Shown in pieces: positions 36,446-38,849 of a stretch of 64,000 bases of DNA. The position numbers and the translations under genes are program-made. Under the pieces are notes generated by a model. The model made no database searches, was not told the origin of the DNA, and saw only the letters and a program-made list of their open reading frames with translations. Position 1 is the first letter of the stretch. Every line of letters begins with the position of its first letter. The stretch is from Gammaproteobacteria bacterium (GTDB lineage: Bacteria > Pseudomonadota > Gammaproteobacteria > Eutrophobiales > Eutrophobiaceae): contig JACPSH010000025.1 of the NCBI GenBank assembly GCA_016193395.1, positions 1 to 64,000 of the forward strand, written 5' to 3'.

Positions 36446-37357
36446 ATGCGGCGGGATAATCCTGAAACCATGCAGCGGGATGACCTTCGATACGTTCTGG
36501 CTGTGCACCGGACCGGCACGCTTGCCGGGGCGGCGCGCTTGCTCGGCGTGAGCCACGTGACCGTATTCCGACGTATTGAAGCAATTGAGAAGACGCTGGG
36601 GGCGCGTTTGTTCGACCGCAAGCGGCAGGGATACATCGCCACGCCGGCCGCGGCGGAGATCGTGCAGCAGGCCGCGCAGATCGAGGAGCAGATCAAAGCG
36701 ATGGAATCGCGCGTCTGGAAGCACGACAGCCGGATCCACGGTATCGTGCGCATTACTTCGACGGATACTTTCAGCGCGCTGATCCTGGCGCCGCTGCTCG
36801 CGCAACTGCGCCAGCAGTGTCCGGAGATCGTCGTCGATCTGGTTATCGTCAACGGCCTGCTCAATATAGGCAAGCGCGAAGCGGACATCGCCGTGCGCGC
36901 GACCCACTCGCCTCCCGAGATGCTGGTCGGTCACCGGATCGGGCCGCTCCGGTTCGCGGTGTACGCCTCGAAATCTTTCGCCGCGCGCCACCTGCGCAAG
37001 GACAAGGACCTCTCGAAGGTACCGTGGGTCCGGCTGGACGCGAGCCTCAGCGGCGACCGGAGCATGCAATGGATCGGCGAAAGCGGCTACCAGCCGCGCA
37101 TCGCGCTGTTCTGCAATTCCTACCTGGGCCGAACCTACGCCGTGCACACCGGCGTCGGGGTCGGGGTCATGTCCTGCATCGTGGCTGCCGGGCTGCCGGG
37201 GCTGGTCCGGGTCAGCCCGCTGATCCCGGAGCTGGAGACGCAGGTCTGGATCCTCGTTCATCCGGACCTGCGGGAGGTCGCGCGCGTCGCGGCGGTCTAC
37301 GCCTTTCTGCGTACGGAGCTGGGGAAGCTGCGCGCCAGGTTCGCCGGGGAGGAGTGA
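36446..37357 (+). CDS. LysR family transcriptional regulator
   Basis: LRYVLAVHRTGTLAGAARLLGVSHVTVFRRIEAIEKTLGARLFDR N-terminal HTH; LysR-type substrate domain. Confidence 0.92.
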   Translation: MRRDNPETMQRDDLRYVLAVHRTGTLAGAARLLGVSHVTVFRRIEAIEKTLGARLFDRKRQGYIATPAAAEIVQQAAQIEEQIKAMESRVWKHDSRIHGIVRITSTDTFSALILAPLLAQLRQQCPEIVVDLVIVNGLLNIGKREADIAVRATHSPPEMLVGHRIGPLRFAVYASKSFAARHLRKDKDLSKVPWVRLDASLSGDRSMQWIGESGYQPRIALFCNSYLGRTYAVHTGVGVGVMSCIVAAGLPGLVRVSPLIPELETQVWILVHPDLREVARVAAVYAFLRTELGKLRARFAGEE

Positions 37358-37370
37358 GCGGCGAATCTAA

Positions 37371-37571
37371 GGAACCTCTGAACAAGTTCAGAGGTTCCCG
37401 CCGCACAAGGAGGTGCGGCCATTTTCCGATTGCGTAAGCGATTGGAAAATGAAGGAAAGCGAAAATCAGACTTTTCGCGCTGACCGCCAGGGATGGCGGG
37501 AATGCAGAAATGGCAGGAGCACATTTCTGCCGTGCTCTGACAAGTCCTGGACGGACTTGTTCAGAGCTTCC
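37371..37571. mobile_element. 201-bp MITE candidate, IS5-like ends, seven internal hairpins
   Basis: TIR GGAACCTCTGAACAAGT / rc of right end GGAAGCTCTGAACAAGT (16/17); CTAA at 37367-37370 and 37572-37575; no ORF. Confidence 0.8.
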
Positions 37572-37579
37572 CTAAAGAC

Positions 37580-37670
37580 GGCCGGGTCCTGTCATCGGAC
37601 CCACCTGTCCGTGCTCGCTCCGGTCCCCTCCGCTTGCGCGCGGAGCAGGTGGACCCGATGCCACCCGGCC
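37580..37670 (+). repeat. Palindromic dispersed repeat, copy a
   Basis: GGCCGGGTCCTGTCATCGGACCCACCTG...CAGGTGGACCCGATGCCACCCGGCC. Confidence 0.8.
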
Positions 37671-37703
37671 GCCTTCAGATCCGCCGTTCATGAATAATCG
37701 GGG

Positions 37704-38849
37704 CTAGACAATCATCTTCTGGAAGCGCTTCGCGGCGAACAGCAGGATGCACACCCCCATCGATGCGAGCACCAAAGCGTCGATCCAGAGCTCCGTAACG
37801 CCCGCCCCGCGCAGGATGACGCCGCGGCTGATGTCCACCATGTAGGTCGCGGGGACCACGTAGCTCAGCAGGAAGAAGATGAGCGGCATGTTCTCTCGGG
37901 GAAAGATGTAGCCGGACAGGAACAGGCTCGGCAGCATGATCATCATGGAGAGCTGCATGGCCTCCGGGTGCGAATTCGCCTTGGTCGAAATGAGGATGCC
38001 GAGGGTCAGGTTGACGAACAGGTAGCAGGTGGACAAGAGCGTCAGCAGGAGGGCGTCGCCATGGATGGGCACCTGGAACACGAAGCGCATGAAGACGAGC
38101 AGGGCGCAGAGCTCGGACACGCCGAGCGCGAAGTAGGGCGCGATCTTCCCCAGCATCAGCGCCAACGGCTTGACCGGCGTCACCAGAAGCTGTTCGAGCG
38201 TCCCGCGCTCCTTCTCACGCACGACGGACAGCGCCGTCAGCATGGTCGTGACGAACAGCAGCAGCACCGCCAGCATGCCGGGCAGGAAGAAGTTCGGCGA
38301 GCGCGAGGCCGGGTTGAACAGGATCTTGGGCCGCGACTCGATCGGCGCGGGCGCGTGTTCCGGCAGCAGGCGGCTCAGGGATTCGTCGAGCGCGATCTGG
38401 CTGGACACGGTGAGCGCCTGGCCGGCGACCGCGGAATCCGATCCGTCCACCAGCACCAGCACCTGCGCGCTGTCGCCGTTGACGAGATCGCGCGCGAAAT
38501 CCACCGGGATCTTGATGCCGACGCGCGCGCGGCCCGCGATCAGCTCCTCGTTCAGCTCCTCGTCGGAATGCACGAACTTGCGGATGTGAAACGTATCCGA
38601 ATTTCGGAACCGGTCGAGGAAGGCGCGGCTCTCCGAGGTGCCGGCGTCCTGCGCGCCGGCGGACTGGCTCCTGCCGCTCTGGTCGTAGACCACCGTGTGC
38701 ACCTGGCGCACGTTCGTGTCGATCGCGAATCCCAGGATGATCATCTGGAACAGCGGCACGATGAAAGAGAAGACCAGCGCCATCCGGTCGCGGACGGCGT
38801 GGAGGACCTCCTTGTAAATCATCGCCCGCAGGCCGCGGAACGCATTCAT
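37704..38849 (-). CDS. ABC-2 type transporter permease
   Basis: FNPASRSPNFFLPGMLAVLLLFVTTMLTALSVVREKERGTLEQLLVTPVKPLALMLGKIAPY. Confidence 0.93.
   Translation of the reverse strand: MNAFRGLRAMIYKEVLHAVRDRMALVFSFIVPLFQMIILGFAIDTNVRQVHTVVYDQSGRSQSAGAQDAGTSESRAFLDRFRNSDTFHIRKFVHSDEELNEELIAGRARVGIKIPVDFARDLVNGDSAQVLVLVDGSDSAVAGQALTVSSQIALDESLSRLLPEHAPAPIESRPKILFNPASRSPNFFLPGMLAVLLLFVTTMLTALSVVREKERGTLEQLLVTPVKPLALMLGKIAPYFALGVSELCALLVFMRFVFQVPIHGDALLLTLLSTCYLFVNLTLGILISTKANSHPEAMQLSMMIMLPSLFLSGYIFPRENMPLIFFLLSYVVPATYMVDISRGVILRGAGVTELWIDALVLASMGVCILLFAAKRFQKMIV

Follow-up and report, generated by a model that had tools for sequence, protein, structure and literature searches.

An IS5-type MITE of Gammaproteobacteria with a conserved hairpin RNA interior and loops resembling CsrA-binding sites

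Background

MITEs are usually regarded as empty passengers. The element described here is like IS5-family MITEs in its terminal inverted repeats (TIRs, starting GGAA...CTCTGAACAAG), in the 4-bp YTAR duplication of its target, in its movement without an ORF of its own and in having partners of the IS5 group, with ends that match its own, resident in relatives, but it differs from them in its interior, which is a five-hairpin RNA with compensatory changes across classes and not a decayed IS. REP/BIME/REPIN and BOX elements are likewise short, modular, intergenic hairpin repeats with module shuffling, comparable to that of the nested two-hairpin module (E+F) reported below. REPs are tied to RAYT transposases and are without flanking target-site duplications (TSDs), and our case departs from the REP/RAYT system in that the single Y1_Tnp gene of the genome (L091) has no E+F-like sequence in its flanks. 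The palindrome-associated elements (PATEs), described as IS200/IS605-derived (PMC4853749), are also MITE-like and rich in palindromes, whereas the ends here are of IS5 type with YTAR TSDs. In addition, the Thiomargarita MITEs (PMC4853749) were considered as the same element and rejected because their ends and duplications differ.

On the RNA side, the comparable systems are the CsrA-sponge small RNAs CsrB/CsrC and RsmX/Y/Z/V/W (Rfam clan CL00106), whose hairpins carry GGA loops with ANGGAN and CAGGAUG motifs, as they do here. Unlike these RNAs, the present element is dispersed, multicopy and mobile, with TIRs and TSDs, shows no promoter in our scan, has only two GGA sites in its base form and stays below threshold in Rfam. 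The TwoAYGGAY RNA of Rfam consists of two hairpins with AYGGAY-type loops and is similar in this respect, but our element gives no match to it, and to our knowledge that RNA is not known as a transposable element. Both IS5-type MITEs and CsrA sponges are familiar on their own, whereas no case that combines the two turned up in the open-access literature searched or in Rfam; searches for CsrA together with MITE or REP returned nothing relevant in the open-access literature, where absence is weak evidence.

Results

The window (the whole 64,000-nt stretch analysed, from a gammaproteobacterial draft assembly) holds the element between two convergent genes, with the following features:

36446-37357, + strand, LysR-type regulator gene upstream (identity from its translation), stop codon about 10 bp before the TSD
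37367-37370, no strand, left copy of the TSD, CTAA (YTAR), from the family-wide TSD test and the empty site of another copy
37371-37571, + strand, whole MITE, 201 bp, made of a ~153-bp base element and the nested E+F module
37371-37398, + strand, hairpin A, 12 pairs, the left TIR folded on itself
37400-37419, + strand, hairpin B, 7 pairs, hexaloop AAGGAG at 37407-37412, which matches CsrA ANGGAN (consensus: PMC7652899)
37420-37451, + strand, hairpin C, 14 pairs, loop GTAA
37454-37478, + strand, hairpin D, 7 pairs here against 12 in the intact element
about 37480-37529, + strand, nested E+F module, missing from the base element
37484-37499, + strand, hairpin E, loop AGGGAT at 37489-37494, of ANGGAN type
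37504-37530, + strand, hairpin F, loop with CAGGAG, GGA at 37516-37518
37534-37567, + strand, hairpin G, the right TIR, loop TGGAC, GGA at 37549-37551
37572-37575, no strand, right copy of the TSD, CTAA, from the family-wide TSD test
37704-38849, - strand, ABC-2 type permease gene, convergent, on the other side of the element (identity from its translation)

The left end of this copy (from 37371) reads GGAACCTCTGAACAAGT and the right end, inward from 37571, reads GGAAGCTCTGAACAAGT, both following the pattern GGAA[C/G]CTCTGAACAAGT. A first-pass annotation made from the letters had proposed a 201-bp IS5-type MITE with CTAA on each flank and seven consecutive stem-loops, and the flanks and all seven hairpins were indeed found where it had placed them. 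The 209-nt stretch folds at -112.9 kcal/mol, compared to -63.1 +/- 4.5 in dinucleotide shuffles (z = -11.1), and none of 200 shuffles was equally stable. What had been overlooked is that the seven hairpins are not a single unit: five of them are the element, and E+F is a separate nested insertion. Indeed, the base element, defined from copies free of E+F (L009, L010, L012, L013 and L015-L017, 153 bp), measures 150-153 bp with the five hairpins A-B-C-D-G, and in the window copy the outer part of the right arm of hairpin D is gone at the E+F insertion. Note that directly 3′ of the element, at 37578-37672 of the window, a long inverted repeat (GGCCGGGTCC...CAGGTGGACCCGATGCCACCCGGCC) lies between the two convergent genes and is possibly a terminator.

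The E+F block (TGACCGCC...TTTCTGC) is a module of ~50 bp with two hairpins, which sits between D and G in the window copy. A second insertion of it was found at the B/C boundary in L005-L007, while it stands free in L023, occurs in tandem in contig C55 and is also present within MITEs that belong to other families, whose ends include GCAGGCTGATGCAAAA and CAGGCTGTTGAAAAA. Both loops of the module, AGGGAT in E and CAGGAG in F, are alike in kind to the CsrA-type loops of B and G. A RAYT/REP origin of the module was rejected, given the single Y1_Tnp gene without flanking E+F. At least two further MITE families of the genome are likewise built as rows of consecutive hairpins, end in palindromes (GCAGGCTGATGCAAAA..., CAGGCTGTTGAAAAAC...) and include E+F as well (L105, L110, L112, L113, L114, L116 around 1300-1740, and L098).

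The search for other copies was productive: the window genome holds 80 matching pieces, which give about 15 two-ended elements plus fragments. The element is multicopy and short, without a transposase ORF. For 99 copies, taken from the window genome and from other genomes, identical 4-mers were found on both flanks in 68, where shuffling predicts 12.7 and the highest of 2000 shuffles gave 24; YTAR stands on both sides of 57 of the 99, and the two copies are identical in 53 of these 57. In G311, the arrangement TTAA-element-TTAA lies between genes read as nadE and glnB, where the same site is uninterrupted in the sister species G204 and G057 (95% and 92% identical) and shows TTAA or CTAA just once. 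In a fourth genome, G781, this position is occupied by a truncated copy. The empty site of G204 and G057 directly demonstrates insertion with a 4-bp target duplication. The duplicated target in G311 takes in the stop codon, TAA, with which the gene upstream ends. More widely, the YTAR target is often the stop codon (TAA/TAG) of the neighboring gene, so that the duplication restores the stop, and about 24 gene 3′ ends abut an element at 0-1 bp (L189, L034, L041, L178, L195 and others). Head-to-tail MITE/IS or IS/IS pairs with one common YTAR were also seen (L227:1924-1950 and L241:1277-1300, both in G160; L254:1953-1968 in G296), which suggests repeated insertion at the border of the element itself. 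In one copy (L214:773-976), a foreign inverted repeat (CTGTGGGAGC...GCTCCCACA) that resembles a Pseudomonas-type REP pair lies inside the loop of hairpin D.

The expected full-length IS with the same TIRs was found in several relatives but not in the window genome, where a profile search with PF01609 and PF05598 gave no match in the draft assembly of 60 contigs; the copies of this genome may be stranded, or the IS may be absent from the draft assembly. For an IS5-family MITE, a transposase gene in its own genome is usual but not obligatory. IS5-group ISs (PF05598) that are flanked by YTAR duplications and whose ends match those of the MITE are L067, in G008 of the same family (1152 bp, TSD TTAG, end GGAACCTCTGAACAAGTCCC), and those of genomes G160, G127, G338, G117 and G296. 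At least twice, the IS and the MITE of one genome share the same deviation from the usual end sequence, namely CGCTGATTTATT in G296 (IS end GGAAACGCTGATTTATT, MITE end GGAAGCGCTGATTTATT) and CTCTGCAAAAG in G127 (IS end GGAAGCTCTGCAAAAG, MITE end GGAATCTCTGCAAAAG).

The preservation of the hairpins among copies was assessed on 67 copies in an alignment fitted to the structure, in which 95.5% of the pair cells are standard pairs. Double compensatory changes occur in 54 of the 59 pairs, a number reached by none of 500 shuffles, and the covariation score is 0.516, compared to 0.140 in shuffled alignments and ~0.07-0.11 with slid partners. A MAFFT-only alignment, which is independent of the structure, agreed in direction, with double changes in 30 pairs and 0/500 shuffles reaching this. 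Hairpins B, C and D covary even though they lie outside the TIRs. The suggestion of selection as + strand RNA was also borne out, since among non-Watson-Crick cells G-U exceeds A-C on one strand by 153 to 67 (2.3:1), and by 33 to 15 (p = 0.013) in a non-redundant set (<80% identity). The interior of the element is therefore a structured RNA under conservation, in which compensatory changes maintain five hairpins and the loops are strand-specific. The loop of hairpin D is YCRCRY in all copies, and covariation between its positions 1 and 5 (T-A or C-G) suggests one extra pair and a 3-nt loop.

The loop of hairpin B, closed by C-G, is ANGGAN in 103 of 108 hexaloops; its first position is A in 106 of 108, positions 3-5 are nearly always GGA, and positions 2 and 6 are free, while 27 different B stems surround this constant loop. 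Likewise, the G loop contains GGA in 106 of 109 copies, with CAGGATG as the commonest core (51 copies). No A or D loop has GGA (0/109), TCC was not seen in the loops of a 100-copy set, GGA always lies on the strand that shows the G-U excess, and in the flanking DNA only 4 of 62 C-G-closed 6-bp hairpins have a GGA loop. The same loop motif recurs with different stems in diverged copies of another class and in subtypes with other ends. The GNRA loops pointed out by the first-pass annotation stood in part: GTAA in hairpin C is common among copies but not fixed, and the fit of the B, G and both E+F loops to the CsrA motif had been missed. Partial conservation is seen in the loops of A, C and D as well.

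The SELEX consensus of CsrA is RUACARGGAUGU, in which GGA lies for the most part in a hexaloop that AC and GU close; the CsrB repeat is CAGGA(U/A/C)G (review: PMC7652899). Hairpin B of L012 (AUACAGGGAUGU) matches this SELEX consensus to the letter, and hairpin G matches the CsrB repeat in many copies (PMC7652899). Note that SELEX favoured short stems (PMC7652899), and that the stems of this element are longer. By this sequence match, the B (ANGGAN) and G (GGA) loops are putative CsrA/RsmA-type sites. CsrA is encoded in the window genome, and csrA was found in 68 of the 75 element-bearing genomes, compared to 316 of 369 overall; its presence was rejected as a discriminating test, as csrA is nearly universal in the class. 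The seven carriers without a csrA match are drafts and, except for G044, all have a same-family relative with csrA. A known Rfam RNA was also rejected as the identity of the element, since no model rose above threshold and the matches to RsmV (E 0.046) and RsmY (E 0.71) stayed far below their gathering scores.

With a covariance model built from 15 copies, 75 of the 369 genomes searched in the class proved to contain the element. When 399 genomes sampled across the phylum were searched, 47 contained it, mostly of another class. Searching by the exact end pattern gave Rehaibacterium terrae and a gammaproteobacterial MAG as carriers, and the base element had no match in plasmids (two queries), phages (one query) or E. 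coli (one query). Elements with the same five-hairpin plan and another right-end type (GTTGAAAAAGTCC, CAAGCAAAAAGTCC) were seen in G158 (L277, L283, L287, L292, L295) and G044 (L280, L288), where the GGA loops are mostly retained, and the five-hairpin RNA plan may thus be common to elements with different IS partners. Relative to the neighboring genes, as delimited by simple ORF calling, 16 insertions are sense, 26 antisense, 24 convergent and 23 divergent, which shows no bias. A scan of the element limited to sigma-70-like promoters found none, and a terminator scan gave only one terminator-like site, on the - strand, at chance level (0.6 expected).

Discussion

We consider it probable, with real room for doubt, that the element is a MITE which an IS5-group transposase moves in trans and whose cargo is a conserved RNA structure, two loops of it being of CsrA-binding type. 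As a non-autonomous member of the IS5 group, it would be transposed by this enzyme with duplication of YTAR, and its RNA would be made by read-through from a neighboring gene. In the window, read-through from the LysR gene would extend its transcript at the 3′ end by the GGA strand, with four hairpins of GGA type, two of which come from the nested E+F module. Such an RNA would bind CsrA dimers and might titrate CsrA as CsrB and RsmZ do, or alter the fate of the mRNA to which it is joined. Points against this reading are the random orientation to neighboring genes, the lack of a promoter-like site in our scan, stems longer than those preferred in SELEX and the sub-threshold scores of RsmV and RsmY.

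Conservation of the structure in many genomes would also be expected of host RNA genes or terminators that are not mobile, are each conserved independently and happen to resemble one another. The probability of this is negligible in our judgment, since the empty site contradicts it, as do the TSDs and the TIRs matched to resident IS elements. It is more conceivable, while still quite unlikely, that we are dealing with an ordinary MITE having no RNA function, in which some DNA-level mechanism maintains perfect palindromes, be it template switching from one arm to the other, repair of cruciforms or of ssDNA, or a constraint set by the transposase. The random orientation of the insertions and the fact that the TIRs make up hairpins A and G would agree with such a process, and arm homogenisation can mimic covariation; however, the one-strand preference for G-U over A-C is not expected from DNA, nor is the fixation of GGA, never TCC, in loops whose stems are replaced, and the covariation extends to B, C and D outside the TIRs.

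A more serious candidate, which we nevertheless hold to be unlikely, is that the structured RNA and its GGA loops are selected in an IS5-type MITE for a reason other than CsrA, for example bidirectional read-through attenuation, protection of mRNA 3′ ends or another RNA-binding protein. Indeed, all five hairpins are conserved and not merely the two with GGA, and the partial conservation of the C and D loops, together with that of A, means that CsrA leaves a part of the structure unexplained. In addition, copies occur in every gene arrangement, as expected if the element chiefly renders its insertions harmless. Against attenuation stands the single terminator-like site on the - strand, at the number expected by chance. 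We know of no other protein with an ANGGAN consensus. The fixed A-N-G-G-A-N with free N is the pattern given for CsrA in the literature (PMC7652899).

Returning to the CsrA reading, the lack of orientation bias indicates that individual insertions do not seem to be selected as 3′ UTRs. Selection would rather act on persisting lines of the element, either via the host, through RNA titration summed over the copies, or via the element itself, for example through tolerance of its insertions. More tentatively, and as a possibility that we rate below the reading of the single element, this may be a transposable family spanning classes with CsrA-binding RNA as cargo, which would seed GGA hairpins, rewire or titrate the Csr/Rsm system and gain sites through nested modules, with several MITE families of different ends having adopted such loops.

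Conclusions

This MITE keeps an RNA structure and loops with a protein-binding motif despite extensive sequence replacement, in many families and in two classes, and it is a convenient case in which to test why hairpins abound in some MITEs of bacteria. If its loops bind CsrA, the element would be a mobile source of sites for a main global regulator of these bacteria and would provide a concrete route by which transposition leads to changed post-transcriptional networks.
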